Below are positions 1-25,568 of a stretch of DNA of 25,568 bases, piece by piece. The notes beneath the pieces were generated by a model. The model worked only from the letters and a program-made list of their open reading frames with translations. It was not told where the DNA came from and did not search any database. This DNA comes from a virus, in IMG/VR virus record IMGVR_UViG_3300017788_000154, positions 1-25,568 of that record; one strand, written 5' to 3'. Made by a program: the position numbers and the translations under genes. Each line of letters begins with the position of its first letter. Position 1 is the stretch's first letter.

Positions 1-66
1 GGCGCCCGCTGGATGGATGCCAAGATCGACACCGCCGAACTGGATGAGATGCTGGCAGAACTGTGA
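1..66 (+). CDS. 3' end of an unrecognised gene (partial)
   Basis: An open frame runs from the first base of the window to a TGA at 64-66, encoding 21 residues (ending MLAELstop). The tail is acidic and probably helical, and the codons are strongly G/C-ending (GCC, CTG, GAC, ATC), matching the rest of the first 880 bases and unlike the later phage genes. A strong hairpin follows 7 nt after the stop. Too little is visible to assign a function. It may be only the end of a reading frame that happens to be open, but the codon pattern and the hairpin after the stop favour a real gene end. Confidence 0.45.
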   Translation, partial: GARWMDAKIDTAELDEMLAEL

Positions 67-73
67 CACCTGA

Positions 74-95
74 GGGGGTGGCACACACCACCCCC
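74..95 (+). terminator. GC-rich hairpin after the first gene
   Basis: GGGGGTGG at 74-81 pairs perfectly with CCACCCCC at 88-95 across a 6-nt CACACA loop. It lies directly downstream of a stop codon, as a terminator would. There is no U-run after it; a C/T-rich tract follows instead. It is therefore not a standard intrinsic terminator and could be a processing or mRNA-stabilising hairpin. Confidence 0.4.
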
Positions 96-147
96 CTCCC
101 CCTCGCCTGACCCTGTAGAATTAACGCATCAACCAAACGACCTGACC

Positions 148-576
148 ATGGCAACTACTTCCTTCGCTTACGGCGACTCCTACTCCCAGTCCGACCGCTT
201 CTATAAGGACTGCGAGCACGACGACCTGATGGACGCCGATGATTTCGGTCCCCCCCGCTTTGGGCGGGACGGTTGGGCAGAGGCCCGGTCCGCCCGCCCA
301 CCCTGGTGCCCCCCCCCCCCCCTCGGGGGGTGCTATACTGATCACATCGACAACCAAACAATGACCCCTGCAGAACTCACCGCCGCCATTGAAGCGGGCA
401 CCATGACCCTCACCCGCCTGCCCGCTGCCCGCCCCCAGCGGTGGAATCTCACGATGACCCGTGTGGGGGGGTCTCGCTCCAGTGTCAAGGGCGCCCGCCC
501 CGATGGCACTAAGGTTACGGGCACCACCGCCAAACCACGCCGCAACCGTAGAGGGGCATGGACCGCCTGCGGTTGA
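148..576 (+). CDS. Hypothetical protein in GC-rich islet; may be two genes
   Basis: This 142-codon frame starts at ATG 148 and I do not recognise it. The first ~34 residues (MATTSFAYGDSYSQSD onward) are acidic and aromatic and look like a genuine short protein. Residues 35-65 are Pro/Gly/Arg-rich and encoded by hairpin-forming DNA and a 14-C homopolymer (309-322), which does not look like normal coding sequence. From ATG 361 (MTPAELTAAIEAG) the frame again looks like a normal, basic small protein of 71 residues, ending RRNRRGAWTACG. A -10-like element at 331-339 and a leader resembling that before ATG 148 stand in front of ATG 361. The most likely reality is two small genes, one from 148 and one at 361-576, joined in frame by chance or by a homopolymer miscount. 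There is no clear Shine-Dalgarno sequence at either start. Confidence 0.4.
   Translation: MATTSFAYGDSYSQSDRFYKDCEHDDLMDADDFGPPRFGRDGWAEARSARPPWCPPPPLGGCYTDHIDNQTMTPAELTAAIEAGTMTLTRLPAARPQRWNLTMTRVGGSRSSVKGARPDGTKVTGTTAKPRRNRRGAWTACG
248..270 (+). other. Imperfect GC hairpin
   Basis: GTCCCCCCC at 248-256 can fold onto GGGCGGGAC at 262-270 across a GCTTT loop, with one C:C mismatch in a 9-position stem. It falls inside the nominal 148-576 frame, at the point where the protein sequence stops looking natural. That suggests the real upstream gene may end near here, or that the region is intergenic. Confidence 0.3.
309..330 (+). repeat. 14-C homopolymer followed by 6 G
   Basis: There are fourteen consecutive C at 309-322, then TC, then six G at 325-330. 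The C and G runs can fold back on each other. Such tracts slip in replication and in sequencing, so the true length, and with it the frame linking 148 to 576, is uncertain. The tract sits immediately upstream of a -10-like box. Confidence 0.8.
331..339 (+). promoter_or_regulatory. Possible extended -10 promoter
   Basis: TGC at 331-333 followed by TATACT at 334-339 matches an extended -10 element (TGnTATAAT) at five of six hexamer bases. No -35 is visible because the upstream DNA is the C/G tract. Initiation would fall near 346, about 15 nt before ATG 361. It supports a separate gene starting at 361. Confidence 0.4.
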
Positions 577-610
577 CCCCCCCTATCCTGTCCCATCGCA
601 CCCCCCTCTC

Positions 611-799
611 ATGATCATGACCCCCGCCTCATGCCTCACCACCCGCCAGATCGTGTGGGCAGGTCGCCCCACTGACGACGCACAGCAGACCATGGGCCTG
701 CATGTGCCCATCACGGTGGAGGCATCGTGGCTAGCAGGTGCTCACGCCGACCGCTTCCGTGAAGAGGCACTCGCCCGCCTGCCTCAGTGGCAGGACTGA
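611..799 (+). CDS. Hypothetical 62-aa protein in GC-rich islet
   Basis: The frame is open from 461, but the stretch before 611 overlaps the previous gene and is low-complexity Pro/Arg/Ala, so ATG 611 (MIMTPASC) or ATG 617 is the sensible start. The product is unrecognised. Residues 10-30 are mixed and soluble-looking, and the C-terminal half (SWLAGAHADRFREEALARL) is probably an amphipathic helix, ending WQD. Codons are G/C-ending. It begins MTPA like the product from ATG 361, so the two may be distantly related or simply share a start context. There is no Shine-Dalgarno sequence; a C-rich 35-nt gap separates it from the previous stop. Confidence 0.5.
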   Translation: MIMTPASCLTTRQIVWAGRPTDDAQQTMGLHVPITVEASWLAGAHADRFREEALARLPQWQD

Positions 800-847
800 C
801 CCGCCACCCTAGCACACCCCCGACGCCATCGCCCCCACGGGCAGTTG

Positions 848-875
848 ATCGGGGGTAATACGTTTGTATCGGGGG
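848..875 (+). repeat. Direct repeat ATCGGGGG, 20-nt period
   Basis: ATCGGGGG occurs at 848-855 and again at 868-875, two helical turns apart. It lies in the non-coding stretch (800-969) where GC-rich sequence gives way to AT-rich sequence. It could be a repeated binding site or a relic of the junction. Nothing else in 800-969 is recognisable apart from AT-rich leader sequence after 890. Confidence 0.4.
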
Positions 876-969
876 CGCCGAGCGAAATCCCATAGATACT
901 ATAAACCTACAAAACTTTGAAAACGCTCGATAGATTACACATTCATAAAAAAATTTTTCCCCCAACAAA

Positions 970-1125
970 ATGACTCAAAAACCTCTAAGTACTCGGACCA
1001 CACCAATCGAAGAGTTTTCGTATATCTTCATGGTATTGAAAGAACTTTGGAAGATGACCACAGAAAGCTTGACAAAGCGTAGAGGGGATGCTAAGATTGA
1101 AATATCTCAAAAGACCACATTATGA
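970..1125 (+). CDS. Hypothetical 51-aa protein
   Basis: The frame ATG 970 to TGA 1123-1125 encodes MTQKPLSTRTTPIEEF onward, with a central YIFMVLKELWKM hydrophobic/aromatic helix and a basic C-terminal part (SLTKRRGDAK). Its stop overlaps the next ATG as ATGA (1122-1125), the usual signature of translational coupling. The next gene has no Shine-Dalgarno sequence of its own, which supports this ORF being translated. The product is not recognised. A near-consensus promoter lies inside its 3' half, so downstream genes can also be expressed without it. Confidence 0.5.
   Translation: MTQKPLSTRTTPIEEFSYIFMVLKELWKMTTESLTKRRGDAKIEISQKTTL
1069..1097 (+). promoter_or_regulatory. Strong sigma70-type promoter
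   Basis: TTGACA at 1069-1074 is a perfect -35. After a 17-nt spacer comes TAAGAT at 1092-1097, preceded by TGC at 1089-1091, so the -10 is also of the extended type. Transcription would begin near 1104, giving an ~18-nt leader to ATG 1122. It lies within the 51-aa ORF. No terminator is seen until 2889, so it may serve the whole small-gene string through the PAAR gene. Host-type promoters of this quality usually mark early phage genes. Confidence 0.65.
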
Positions 1126-1520
1126 AAAAACTTGGTATTCTTGGAATTGCCGTGGCAACGCTCACATCTCCTTTGAGTGCTTTTGCCGCCGCCTCATATG
1201 CTCAGCAAGCTGCTACAGAATGGTCTGACAAACCATATGGTGCAACGTACTACAAAAAAGATGGCACAAAAATCTTTATTTCTCCTGGACCTGGAATTAA
1301 TGCCAGAATGCGAGAAGTCGAAGCAATGTTAAAAAATGAACAAATTGCTCAATACGCTCCTCCTGCTCAAGTACAGTATCAACCGCCGAGCTTCTTTCAA
1401 GGTTCATCTGGTGCCCCAGTTGTAGTTCCTCCTACCGTAATTAACACTCAACCAAATCGCTGTCGTCAGAAGCGTATTAATTTACTGTTAGTTTTTGACG
1501 TTGAATCAGCTGATTGTTGA
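1122..1520 (+). CDS. Exported hypothetical protein with Sec signal peptide
   Basis: The 132-residue product starts MKKLGILGIAVATLTSPLSAFAA: a short basic N-region, a hydrophobic core to about residue 20 and an AFA-A type signal peptidase I site near residues 22-23. The mature part has an aromatic/charged segment (EWSDKPYGATYYKKDGT, about 33-50), a helical stretch (NARMREVEAMLKNEQI), then a Pro/Gln/Ser-rich linker and a C-terminal tail with Cys near 113 and at the end. I do not recognise the family. Export suggests action in the periplasm or envelope of the host. The start overlaps the preceding stop (ATGA) and the stop overlaps the next start (TGATG). Confidence 0.7.
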   Translation: MKKLGILGIAVATLTSPLSAFAAASYAQQAATEWSDKPYGATYYKKDGTKIFISPGPGINARMREVEAMLKNEQIAQYAPPAQVQYQPPSFFQGSSGAPVVVPPTVINTQPNRCRQKRINLLLVFDVESADC

Positions 1521-1687
1521 TGGAACAAGTAACACATATACTTGTTGATCATAATACGCATAGTATTATTATATGTGGAAATAGAGGATCTCAGAGAATA
1601 TTGAGATTTCACTTTTCCACATTTTATGATGCTTTAGATTATTGTGCTACAAAAATAAGACATGAACATATGTTGTATATAAGTTGA
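1520..1687 (+). CDS. Hypothetical 55-aa protein
   Basis: ATG 1520 shares its A with the TGA of the exported protein gene (1518-1520), and the frame runs to TGA 1685-1687. The product begins MEQVTHILVDHNTHSIIICG and continues with RILRFHFSTFYDALDYC. It is rich in His, Ile and Phe and reads as a small alpha/beta fold (two strands, then a helix such as STFYDALDYCATKI). No family is recognised. The one-base stop/start overlap and AT-rich codons like its neighbours make it a credible gene, though it is short. Confidence 0.55.
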   Translation: MEQVTHILVDHNTHSIIICGNRGSQRILRFHFSTFYDALDYCATKIRHEHMLYIS

Positions 1688-1712
1688 TATATAATGCAGT
1701 TGTAAACAAATC

Positions 1713-1910
1713 ATGATTCCACACATTTACGAAACAACCGTAGAATATAATGAAGATTTTGATGAATACTTTATTACACTACCTGATGAACTGACTGATT
1801 TAGTTGGTTGGGAAGAAGGTGATGTAGTAGAATGGAAGATCAATAAGGATGGTTCAGTACTTATAGAAAAAGTAGACGAATTTTTTGATGAAAGCGAAAA
1901 CAATGACTGA
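1713..1910 (+). CDS. AbrB/SpoVT-like small protein
   Basis: This 65-aa acidic protein has residues 18-54 reading YFITLPDELTDLVGWEEGD then VVEWKINKDGSVLIEKV. This matches the swapped-hairpin AbrB/SpoVT/MazE pattern: a strand with I-x-L/I-P, a short helix ending in L/V-G, then W/K-x-G-D and two strands. Family members are usually dimeric DNA-binding regulators or antitoxins. Here the surface is very acidic (C-terminus KVDEFFDESEND-like), which argues against simple DNA binding and leaves room for a protein partner. Related small proteins are, as I recall, common in T4-like cyanophages. Its last codons overlap the next gene by 8 nt. No toxin gene is apparent beside it. Confidence 0.7.
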   Translation: MIPHIYETTVEYNEDFDEYFITLPDELTDLVGWEEGDVVEWKINKDGSVLIEKVDEFFDESENND

Positions 1911-2247
1911 AGATAAAACAGTACAATATAAAATTGTAGACAAAGAAGGAAAAGTTGTTGAAGACGTATCATTCAATGACTACGAAAAACTGGCGGATCA
2001 TATGCTAGGTTTAGCAGAAAAGTGGTACACTGGATTGTATAATGCTGATGATACGTTAGAGATTTCTACGTTTGATCAAACTGGAGAGTTAATTTACTCT
2101 GATACAGCAACATTTGGAGAAACGATGAATGACGAATCAAGTTTGGAAGACGAGCTTAAGCAACTTGCTGCAACACAACACCAATCAGCAGGTGAAGGTT
2201 TTGGAGGAAATCCTACAAAATCTCGAAAGAAGAGTAAAAAGAGTTGA
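1903..2247 (+). CDS. Hypothetical 114-aa protein
   Basis: ATG 1903 (MTEDKTVQYKIVDKEGK) is preferred; a TTG at 1885 and an ATG at 1888 in frame would overlap the AbrB-like gene more deeply. The N-terminal ~75 residues form an acidic, mixed alpha/beta domain (YKIVDKEGKVVEDVSF, then DYEKLADHMLGLAEKWYTGLY, then LEISTFDQTGELIYSD). The last 20 residues are basic and low-complexity (TKSRKKSKKS) and overlap the next ORF in another frame. I do not recognise the family. The 8-nt overlap with the previous gene suggests coupling. Confidence 0.65.
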   Translation: MTEDKTVQYKIVDKEGKVVEDVSFNDYEKLADHMLGLAEKWYTGLYNADDTLEISTFDQTGELIYSDTATFGETMNDESSLEDELKQLAATQHQSAGEGFGGNPTKSRKKSKKS

Positions 2248-2380
2248 GAATCGTTTAGCACAGATTCCACATCCCTTCGTTATACTATACAGACCACCCA
2301 ACTCGGAATATATAAAGCTTAACGAGGCATTGGATTCTTTGTTTGATCGTCTAAATAATATAGAACAACAGTTGAAGTAA
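2129..2380 (+). CDS. Small coiled-coil protein before PAAR (start uncertain)
   Basis: The frame runs to TAA 2378-2380, whose last A is the A of the PAAR ATG. ATG 2129 gives 83 residues but overlaps the preceding gene by 119 nt. GTG 2192 (62 residues, beginning VKVLEEILQNLERRVKRVENR) or TTG 2201 would cut the overlap to 47-56 nt and leaves exactly the part that looks real. That part has a heptad-patterned helix with Leu/Ile/Val, a short Pro-containing hinge (AQIPHPFVILYRPPN), and a second heptad helix (ALDSLFDRLNNIEQQLK). The coupling to PAAR suggests co-synthesis with the spike tip, perhaps as an assembly partner. The function is otherwise unknown. Confidence 0.6.
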   Translation: MTNQVWKTSLSNLLQHNTNQQVKVLEEILQNLERRVKRVENRLAQIPHPFVILYRPPNSEYIKLNEALDSLFDRLNNIEQQLK

Positions 2381-2694
2381 TGCCAGGAATTGCAAGACAA
2401 AACGATACGGTAGCAACTGGTCACGGATGTGATACTACGACGACGATTCAGGAAGGATCTCCCAATGTTCGTATCAACGGAAGGGGAGCGGCTTATGCGA
2501 ATGCTGCGTTATCACCTCACACGATCACAAATTCTGCTCCTCTACCTGCTCCTCCCTGTATTGGGCATTCAGCACAAGTCAATGCAGGTTATGGAAGAGT
2601 GCTTGTCAACGGCAGACCGATTGCAAGAATCGGTGATTCTGCCGATCTTGGGCAAATTACCACTGGATCTGCAAATGTCTTGACAAGCGGGTAA
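2380..2694 (+). CDS. 5.4: PAAR-domain baseplate spike tip (T4 gp5.4-like)
   Basis: The 104-aa protein opens MPGIARQNDTVATGHGC, the typical PAAR N-terminus, followed by three short strands with INGRGAA and VNGRPIARIGDSAD, the repeated v-N-G-r-p/g-a-r pattern of the family. Candidate metal ligands are His15, Cys17, His47, Cys60 and His63. PAAR proteins form the sharp conical tip of contractile-tail spikes and cap the gp5 beta-helix; T4 gp5.4 is about the same size. Its start overlaps the stop of the coiled-coil ORF (TAATG), so the two are probably translated together. The -35 of the next gene's promoter lies within its last codons. Confidence 0.9.
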   Translation: MPGIARQNDTVATGHGCDTTTTIQEGSPNVRINGRGAAYANAALSPHTITNSAPLPAPPCIGHSAQVNAGYGRVLVNGRPIARIGDSADLGQITTGSANVLTSG

Positions 2695-2708
2695 AAATAT
2701 TGTATACT
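2680..2708 (+). promoter_or_regulatory. Near-consensus sigma70 promoter
   Basis: TTGACA (2680-2685), a 17-nt spacer and TATACT (2703-2708) give a nearly perfect host vegetative promoter. The -35 is inside the end of the PAAR gene and the -10 is just past its stop. Transcription would start near 2715. A GAGG ribosome binding site follows at 2721-2724, ahead of ATG 2731. It is a host-type promoter within a late structural region. Confidence 0.75.
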
Positions 2709-2730
2709 ATTGAAGTTATTGAGGTAACGA

Positions 2731-2874
2731 ATGGCAAAATCACCAAGTTTTAACAAGTCAAGTTATGTCCCTGGCAAACCTAAATGCACTCGTCAAGGTC
2801 GCAGTAAAAATACAAACCTTGCTGCATCCTCACGTAATGGACGCAAAAAGCGTTATCGTGGGCAAGGACATTAA
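2731..2874 (+). CDS. 47-aa highly basic protein with YRGQG C-terminus
   Basis: The product starts MAKSPSFNKSSYVPGKPK, continues with CTRQGRSKNTNLAASSRNG and ends RKKRYRGQGH. It is very rich in Arg, Lys, Ser and Gly, has almost no hydrophobic core, and is likely disordered or nucleic-acid binding. Small basic proteins with a T-x-Q-G-x-S and KxYRGQGR-like ending are, to my knowledge, recurrent in T4-like cyanophages but uncharacterised; this is recall, not a search. It has its own strong promoter, a GAGG ribosome binding site 6 nt before ATG, and a terminator starting 14 nt after the stop, so it is a one-gene transcription unit. An RNA- or DNA-binding role is only an inference from composition. 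Confidence 0.75.
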   Translation: MAKSPSFNKSSYVPGKPKCTRQGRSKNTNLAASSRNGRKKRYRGQGH

Positions 2875-2888
2875 AAAATAATGAAATT

Positions 2889-2911
2889 AACGCCAGTTTT
2901 GGCGTTTTTTT
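2889..2911 (+). terminator. Intrinsic terminator
   Basis: AACGCCA (2889-2895) pairs perfectly with TGGCGTT (2900-2906) over a GTTT loop, and the second arm runs into a T tract through 2911. It ends the 47-aa gene unit and would also stop read-through from the small-gene string upstream, separating it from the late structural genes. Confidence 0.85.
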
Positions 2912-2975
2912 ATGTTTTGACGGGATAGCAACCCCGTAAAAAGTTCTGTTTTCACTCAAATAAGGAGAAAAACAG

Positions 2976-3176
2976 ATGGCTACGCACTCAAATCCAGACA
3001 GAGACACAAAATATATGAAAGAAACGTGGGGAACGACACGTTTAATCACTGATTATGTTCCTTTGGAGAGAGGAACTCCGTCAAAAACAAGAAAAAATGA
3101 TCCTCCAAAAAATAGAATGTCAAAAATGTGTGGCGGTAAGGAAGGATTTGATGATTATGTTGAGTGGTGGGTATAA
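2976..3176 (+). CDS. Hypothetical 66-aa protein
   Basis: The start ATG 2976 has a good Shine-Dalgarno sequence (AGGAG, 2963-2967) 8 nt upstream. The product (MATHSNPDRDTKYMKETWGT onward) is polar, with a basic middle (SKTRKNDPPKNRMSK) and an aromatic end (DDYVEWWV). It contains a single Cys (residue 52). I recognise no family. Its stop codon lies inside the TATAAATA late promoter of gp25. No clear promoter of its own is visible in the 60 nt after the terminator, only a weak 5-bp hairpin (2920-2937). Confidence 0.7.
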   Translation: MATHSNPDRDTKYMKETWGTTRLITDYVPLERGTPSKTRKNDPPKNRMSKMCGGKEGFDDYVEWWV

Positions 3177-24448: not shown

Positions 24449-24664
24449 ATGGATTATTCAAAAATTATAGAGCACGATAATCTGGTTAGAGATAACTCTA
24501 CTGGAGCGGTTATAAATATTGATAAAAGCACATTTGAAGATATAAAAAGGATTCGTAGTAGTAATTGTTCCGTCAAGCAATTGCAGTCAGATCTTGAAAG
24601 TTTAAAGCATGAATTGTCAGACATAAAAAATCTTCTAAGAGAATTAATAAGACATGGCGGTTAG
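24449..24664 (+). CDS. 71-aa coiled-coil protein between structural genes
   Basis: The start is 2 nt after the stop of the DUF4815 gene (TAATAATG). Residues 1-35 (MDYSKIIEHDNLVRDNSTGA, then IDKSTFEDIKRIR) are polar. Residues 42-66 form a heptad-patterned helix (VKQLQSDLESLKHELSDIKN). Small proteins of this layout occur between large structural genes in cyanophages, to my recollection, with no known function. A connector or assembly factor for the neighbouring fibre-like proteins is a guess from the coiled coil. It overlaps the next gene by 11 nt. Confidence 0.75.
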   Translation: MDYSKIIEHDNLVRDNSTGAVINIDKSTFEDIKRIRSSNCSVKQLQSDLESLKHELSDIKNLLRELIRHGG

Positions 24665-25568
24665 AGAAGTATTAAAAACGTATTCGTTTGAACAGCAACG
24701 TCAAGAAATTAATAATCTATCCAGCGATGTTGGAGATGCTAGTTCTCTTACGACCACATCAAAGGTAATTACACTGGCAATTAATGATATTGTCAGTGGT
24801 TCTCAGCAGTTAGTCAATGCAACACTAACTGGAGACCTGACTATTCAAGGCGGAGATATCTATCTGCAGGATGCTGCTACTGATATTTTCATTAGAGACA
24901 ATGTTCTGAACGCTCTGTTGATAACTGAAGGATCAAATCCATATATTAGTGTTGACACCACTAATGGTTCGGAATTGGTAACCATTCATAAAAATACTTT
25001 AGTTGGTGGGAACTTAACTGTCAATGGCGATATAACTTTTAGAGCTGGCGATGGATCTGCTGGGTCTATTACGCTCGGTGATGGAAATACAGATAATATT
25101 GTATTTGGTGCAGATGTTAATTCTAGTATTGTACCAAATACTAATAATACTTATAACTTAGGTTCATCTTCTCAAATTTGGTCTAGTATTTTTCTAACTA
25201 CAATTTCTGGAGGAACAAATGCTGATATTATTGTTGATCCAAATGGTACTGGTGATTTTGTATTTAAAGGCGGCGTAGGTCAAAATTTTGTTATTAATGA
25301 TGGAACTGTAGAGAAATTTAGAATTGATAGCGAAACTGGCAGTGTATTTTTTAGTGGACCTATTAATGTTCCTGGCGGTATTGCATTACAAGATAATACC
25401 GTAAATGCATTTACTATTACCGAAGGAACCAATCCATATTTCACTATTGATACAGTAAATAACGCAGAGAAAGTTACTGTTCATAAAAATTTAGATGTTC
25501 TTGGTGATCTATATATCGCTGGAACGACGACAACAATTAATTCAACTACATTAACGGTTGATGATAAA
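24654..25568 (+). CDS. Tail-fibre-like structural protein (3' end outside window)
   Basis: ATG 24654 lies inside the end of the coiled-coil gene, and the frame stays open for 305 codons to the window edge. The N-terminus is MAVREVLKTYSFEQQRQEIN, a helical attachment-like segment. After it the sequence is a run of short beta repeats such as GDLTIQGGDIYLQDAATDIF, GGNLTVNGDITF, NTYNLGSSSQIWSSIFL and GTTTTINSTTLTVDDK, typical of cyanophage tail fibres and baseplate-linked adhesins. A block near residues 78-130 (LLITEGSNPYISVDTTNG, ELVTIHKN) is repeated near 244-295 (FTITEGTNPYFTIDTVNN, EKVTVHKN). The length and C-terminal receptor-binding part cannot be seen. Confidence 0.85.
   Translation, partial: MAVREVLKTYSFEQQRQEINNLSSDVGDASSLTTTSKVITLAINDIVSGSQQLVNATLTGDLTIQGGDIYLQDAATDIFIRDNVLNALLITEGSNPYISVDTTNGSELVTIHKNTLVGGNLTVNGDITFRAGDGSAGSITLGDGNTDNIVFGADVNSSIVPNTNNTYNLGSSSQIWSSIFLTTISGGTNADIIVDPNGTGDFVFKGGVGQNFVINDGTVEKFRIDSETGSVFFSGPINVPGGIALQDNTVNAFTITEGTNPYFTIDTVNNAEKVTVHKNLDVLGDLYIAGTTTTINSTTLTVDDK

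Follow-up and report, generated by a model that had tools for sequence, protein, structure and literature searches.

The GC-rich islet that opens our window (the 25,568 bases analysed, which are the whole of IMG/VR record IMGVR_UViG_3300017788_000154) is, with a probability that we put at roughly three in four, the downstream end of an array of small genes, conserved and modular, organised as one transcription unit per gene and probably devoted to early host takeover. The array stops about 2 kb short of gp25, at a boundary that is fixed, and its units comprise a palindromic element, a -10 box, a short A/C leader, an ATG (often ATG-ACC), an ORF and, in many cases, a GC hairpin. The GC step at the edge of the islet is real and conserved and marks an ordinary location for this phage family, and the regulatory anatomy is clear, and partly new.

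A two-segment fit to bases 1-3000 places a change point at 884, with GC content falling from 65.7% before it to 38.4% after it, and a log-likelihood gain of 94 over a model with one composition. Positions 1-880 are C-biased (C 38.6%, G 27.0%) and hold 10 C-runs of at least 5 (including 14 Cs at 309) together with 5 G-runs of at least 5, against 3 C-runs and no G-runs of that length in the remaining 24.7 kb; GC3 is 75% in islet ORFs versus 16% in late genes. The original prediction had described the first ~880 bases in these terms, as a GC-rich, C-biased stretch with C runs and G/C-ending codons within a T4-like cyanophage genome, and each part of that description is borne out, the window containing gp25, gp6 and other T4-like structural genes. 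A GC profile of the whole contig brought out no further GC-rich patch: 300-bp windows beyond 900 reach at most 49.7%, so the islet is unique in the record and, the window being the entire record, is also the contig end.

The same step recurs elsewhere. GC was counted directly in 22 relatives, isolates S-PM2 and S-H9-2 among them, and in all 22 the change occurs at the same motif (54-66% upstream, 30-44% downstream), about 2 kb upstream of gp25; every relative whose sequence reaches far enough upstream has a GC-rich block at this position. Exactly at the step lies a non-coding, unstranded boundary block of ~55 nt (877-930, GCCGAGCG..CATAGATACTAT(A/T)AACCTACAAAACTTTGAAAACGC; in outline GCCGAGCG-AAAA-CATAGATACTATTAACCTACAAAACTTTGAAAACGC), which could be aligned between the window and 27 further loci. 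It is nearly invariant in the window's clade and recognisable but diverged in S-H9-2 and S-PM2, and no consensus RNA structure was predicted for 877-930 and its relatives. Because the step is conserved at the same ~55-nt sequence in 22 loci, we conclude that it is ancestral, and the product of neither a chimera nor a recent acquisition, the two origins that had initially been suggested for it.

A chimeric assembly join at about 880 might have been expected from the position of the islet at a contig end, and contigs do often stop within the repetitive, C-run-rich array: relatives often begin inside the islet, and the first bases of one contig (L002) fall in the -10 region of a unit, as breakage of assemblies at array repeats would produce. 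Against a chimera, the joint with its two flanks is also carried by other, independent contigs (L001, L002 and L008-L030) and by the cultured phages S-PM2 and S-H9-2. An exact 22-mer spanning the joint is present in two other IMG/VR contigs, well inside the 189,882-base one (L001), and a gapped boundary pattern, which was too strict, finds two contigs only. The chimera is thereby refuted, and we give it practically no weight.

Recent transfer of the block from a GC-rich phage or a Synechococcus/Cyanobium host, with a composition that has not yet drifted, would account for the strong GC step and for the host-like codon usage of the islet, but the joint conserved at the same place and boundary in 22 relatives largely refutes it. 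Raised GC upstream of gp25 (peaks 54-63%) was found in 8/8 isolates first examined, and BLAST of the islet matched S-PM2 (with window bases 610-775) as well as S-H9-2 and S-CAM3 (within window bases 1-66), in each case a few kb before gp25 there too. In 300 host-family genomes, the family of the last array gene, ORF D (see below), gave no convincing match and a single weak, interrupted one, and the DUF7249 family gave three; neither the phage leader nor a strong palindrome surrounds any of these host matches, and the exact leader is absent from the contigs of 84,980 bacterial and archaeal species. The exact palindrome pattern was found in 0 of 101 host genomes, a weak result since few phage sites match it exactly either. 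We consider recent transfer improbable: the islet genes look like long-term phage genes in a host-like code, and long-standing host-like coding is the better reading of their codons.

Within the islet, where all features lie on the + strand, the first is the 3' end of a small gene that probably belongs to the DUF7249 (NGWxNWETWN) family (1-66; 86% DNA identity to S-H9-2 1009-1074), the C-terminus of which aligns with the DUF7249-family alignment of relatives; the window itself holds the last 21 residues only, and the profile match (PF23907, E 1e-14, 55.8 against a cut-off of 27) is that of relative L011. Overlapping the stop codon of this gene is a 24-bp palindromic element (TGTGACACCTGAGGGGGTGGCACA, 62-85), which is by a wide margin the top position weight matrix match in the 25.6-kb window (at 61-86, score 22.8; next unrelated + strand match 8.2) and is centred 42.5 nt before a -10 hexamer, TAGAAT, at 116-121 (leader HMM match at 104, 34 bits). 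After the first gene, the sequence can form a GC-rich terminator-like hairpin (72-98), one of the GC hairpins originally anticipated. An A/C-rich leader without a Shine-Dalgarno motif (TAACGCATCAACCAAACGACCTGACC, 122-147, identified by the leader HMM) precedes ORF B (148-576), a member of a DADDF..RDGWA family with a relative in L027, the window/L027 pair having a third-position excess. ORF B has TGC where the L027 relative stops at TGA (TGGTGA), so that its frame stays open across the C14 tract and joins that of ORF C; this read-through may be a real fusion, a slippage site or a sequence error. A second hairpin predicted from the sequence (GGTGCCCCCC...GGGGGGTGC, 305-333) ends right before the -10 hexamer of the next unit (TATACT, 334-339; leader HMM match at 331, 17 bits), upstream of which the operator scan of this contig found no good palindrome. 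ORF C (361-576), 71 aa and basic, is predicted from unit anatomy only, and no relatives of it were found.

The last array gene, ORF D (611-799, 62 aa), belongs to an xTRQxVW...DEAIAxLP family with a third-position excess, common to S-PM2 and many IMG/VR contigs (S-PM2 24616-24781 has 78% DNA identity to window 610-775 by BLAST); its predicted structure is of low confidence (pLDDT 67, pTM 0.31). Searches of ORFs B, C and D against Pfam, PHROGs and NCBIfam gave no match, and an Rfam search none either. The small ORFs of the islet had been called unrecognised, which does not hold for 1-66, probably of DUF7249 type, or for the ORFs at 148 and 611, whose families are common to other cyanophages. 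First on the AT-rich side is a conserved small ORF, MTQK..IEEFSYIFMVLKELWKM (970-1125, +), identified from the alignment of loci and without a Pfam or NCBIfam match; a predicted sigma70-type promoter, TTGACA-17-TAAGAT (1069-1097, +), precedes the gene at 1122. Further on are a MazE/AbrB-like protein (1713-1910; PF04014, 30.5 bits, above cut-off), conserved beside the boundary and without an obvious toxin partner, and, just before gp25, a PAAR-motif protein (PF05488, 2380-2694) that is likely a spike-tip protein.

A search with the protein at 1713-1910 yielded 39 loci. We trained a leader HMM on 49 units picked by hand (these seeds match by construction but are a minority of sites). Run over the roughly 0.75 Mb of DNA retrieved, it finds 223 sites of at least 14 bits, against none after shuffling; the sites are all on one strand within each locus, and most are in GC-rich DNA. 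We extracted 147 non-redundant units from 36 loci. Their TAGACT/TATAAT-like -10 hexamer is most commonly TAGACT, with TATACT and TAGAAT next, and the ATG comes about 24 nt after it. A (43%) and C (35%) together make up 78% of the leader, a Shine-Dalgarno-like motif occurs in just 6 of the 147 units, ACC is the commonest second codon and the median ORF length is 62 aa. A -35 box (at most one mismatch to TTGACA, at the right distance) was found in 6 of 134 units, mainly ahead of less GC-rich genes.

Tandem small ORFs, mostly without named homologues, adjoin the gp25-gp6 structural module, and the unit proteins group into about 35 families, arranged in different orders in the 36 loci. In nine pairs compared, differences at codon positions 1/2/3 number 94/92/180, a third-position excess from which it follows that the array ORFs are coding. 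Few of their proteins match anything known: DUF7249, KTSC-like (weakly), ArdA-like, HicA-like and Kyano_Gp96. The HicA-like toxin ORF (PF07927, 25.3 bits; PHROG toxin) is the last array gene in two contigs, after the ORF D relative (L001 minus strand 2793-3005 and L002 679-891). A family of about 142 aa in the array has weak similarity to ArdA antirestriction proteins (E 7.5e-5, below Pfam's cut-off; L012 5030-5458, L020 4486-4911, L008 5517-5939).

Aligning columns on the -10 exposed two further conserved patches, which proved to be the halves of a 24-bp palindrome, TGTGMCAGTT-N4-AACTGKCACA, present in most units with its centre 42.5 nt upstream of the -10. One half correlates with the reverse complement of the other at 0.84 when centred at -42.5, against a median of 0.005 at other centres; a direct-repeat reading is weak beside the palindrome. 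In held-out scoring of 89 units, with matrices that exclude the same locus and the same upstream gene family, the mean palindrome score is +5.2 at the expected place versus -7.4 elsewhere, and the best placement falls within 2 nt of expectation in 79 of the 89. It counts against the favoured reading that, of the three complete units in this window, just one carries a strong palindrome. Twenty-two copies lie wholly within the upstream gene and are spread over all three frames. There is no covariation between the two halves (z -2.9), so the palindrome acts at the level of DNA, and an RNA-hairpin reading is rejected.

Sites of this kind extend beyond the array. About 35 are spread over the S-PM2 genome, in most cases ahead of a -10 and an ATG; they include sites near psbA, gp32 and a helicase, and in the AT-richer ORFanage. 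The site upstream of psbA (135161-135186) is accompanied by a -35 and a -10, and its distance to the -10 exceeds that in array units by about 20 nt. The sites before gp32 and the helicase (145856 and 192425) suggest, from sequence, a genome-wide regulon. Palindrome sites also occur in Syn9, ACG-2014f, B23, S-SCSM1 and P-RSM3, and in Syn9 a palindrome plus -10 lies within the small-gene region at 44-53 kb. Bacterial CRP-type operators have the form TGTGA-N6-TCACA, and the array palindrome resembles them in its facing TGTGA...TCACA half-sites but spaces these by 14 nt instead of 6. A 2016 study by Doron et al. in ISME J reportedly described a novel, conserved early regulatory element of T4-like cyanophages, including Syn9 and P-TIM40. 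We presume that our palindrome is that element, as it occurs among the small genes of Syn9 and is shared by several T4-like cyanophages, although GC-rich arrays and codon regimes are not known to be part of that study. If the two are the same, what is new here is the exact geometry, the persistence inside coding sequence and the GC-rich array that it controls.

A palindrome points to a dimeric binder, which might also be a repressor silencing the units later in infection. Its centre, about 54 nt upstream of the predicted start and away from the -10, suits activation, as does the presence of a -35 in only 6/134 units; neither observation is decisive, and we regard the repressor as unlikely. The MazE-like protein at 1713 was set aside as a candidate reader of the palindrome, no counterpart being annotated in the S-PM2 stretch before gp25. 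Activation by a dimeric DNA-binding protein is the reading that we carry forward.

The nearest published object is the S-PM2 "ORFanage", a small-ORF region of the same type, the published description of which concerns an AT-richer part, at 5.8-15.3 kb, that is lost in culture (Puxty et al. 2015, PMC4503421; Clokie et al. 2010, PMC2984593). Neither a GC-rich end nor repeated promoter-leader units nor the palindrome is mentioned in the ORFanage passages of these two papers. In S-PM2, the islet corresponds directly to 21.4-25.0 kb, just before gp25. With tandem small ORFs beside gp25-gp6 and gene content that is shuffled between the 36 loci, the array is of the ORFanage type known from Kyanoviridae.

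Shuffled gene order with shared leaders, and hairpins in many spacers (28-60 nt spacers have a median MFE of -17.2 against -10.7 when shuffled), also raise the possibility that the units are mainly recombination cassettes, PeSL- or integron-like, in which leader and palindrome are kept as crossover points and the promoter role is secondary. PeSLs have been proposed to drive shuffling in other T4-like phages, and the PeSL cassettes of RB49-like phages likewise place repeated promoter and stem-loop units between the small genes of a shuffled region (as cited in PMC4503421). In the relevant passage of Puxty et al. (PMC4503421), PeSL-mediated shuffling is rejected as unlikely for the neighbouring deleted region of S-PM2, 5.8-15.3 kb, where PeSLs are sparse; the GC-rich end at 21-25 kb differs from it in its dense promoter units, though there is no stem-loop in each. 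Array units differ from PeSLs in that 38 of 85 have a stop-to--10 distance of at most 19 nt, too short for a separate stem-loop, and in adding a palindrome and a leader without Shine-Dalgarno. PeSL genes each have an early sigma70-type promoter; the predicted promoters of the array have a -10, with a -35 in only 6/134 units. Moreover, only the palindrome half-sites, the -10 and the leader are kept while the intervening letters vary, which fits selection on binding sites, and sites also stand alone elsewhere in S-PM2. Cassettes with a secondary promoter role therefore seem to us a minority prospect beside an array of separate transcription units.

Relative synonymous codon usage of the islet genes correlates with that of three Synechococcus/Cyanobium genomes at r 0.78-0.85, whereas the late genes of the window correlate with the same three at -0.39 to -0.61. 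The link to GC-rich picocyanobacteria, part of the first interpretation, has some truth in view of this match of codons, and the islet is absent from the two Prochlorococcus phages sampled (P-TIM68 and P-RSM3), as it is from Syn9 and B23; it is recent transfer from such hosts that falls away. Codon choice would be a reason for the GC content of the islet, though the spacers are GC-rich too, which codon selection does not predict. The operator sites of the outer S-PM2 ORFanage are in DNA of 34-49% GC, and Syn9 and B23 carry sites without an islet, so that GC-richness is not needed for the promoter and early expression alone does not explain the GC. A broader proposal, which we advance tentatively and would put somewhat short of even odds, is that one T4-like cyanophage genome may run two opposite coding regimes switched by promoter class. 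Shuffled one-gene early units, with a palindrome-dependent promoter lacking a -35, a leader without Shine-Dalgarno and host codons, would extend up to the fixed boundary; beyond it would lie late genes with anti-host codons matched to phage tRNAs, the putative palindrome regulator being a host or virion-delivered factor.

Under the favoured reading, a dimeric DNA-binding protein, of host or phage origin, would most likely bind the palindrome and recruit host RNA polymerase to -10 boxes, most of which have no -35, giving many short mRNAs early in infection. The leader would work without a Shine-Dalgarno, and host-like GC-ending codons may allow translation by host tRNAs before phage tRNAs build up. 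The products would probably act in host takeover or counter-defence, to judge from the ArdA-like and HicA-like members of related arrays. What was suspected to be an assembly fault can now be described as a set of small genes found across the phage family, probably early and directed at the host. The signature of palindrome, -10 and A/C leader offers a way to call many unannotated small cyanophage genes, and two questions are made testable: which protein reads the palindrome, and whether codon use is matched to the stage of infection.
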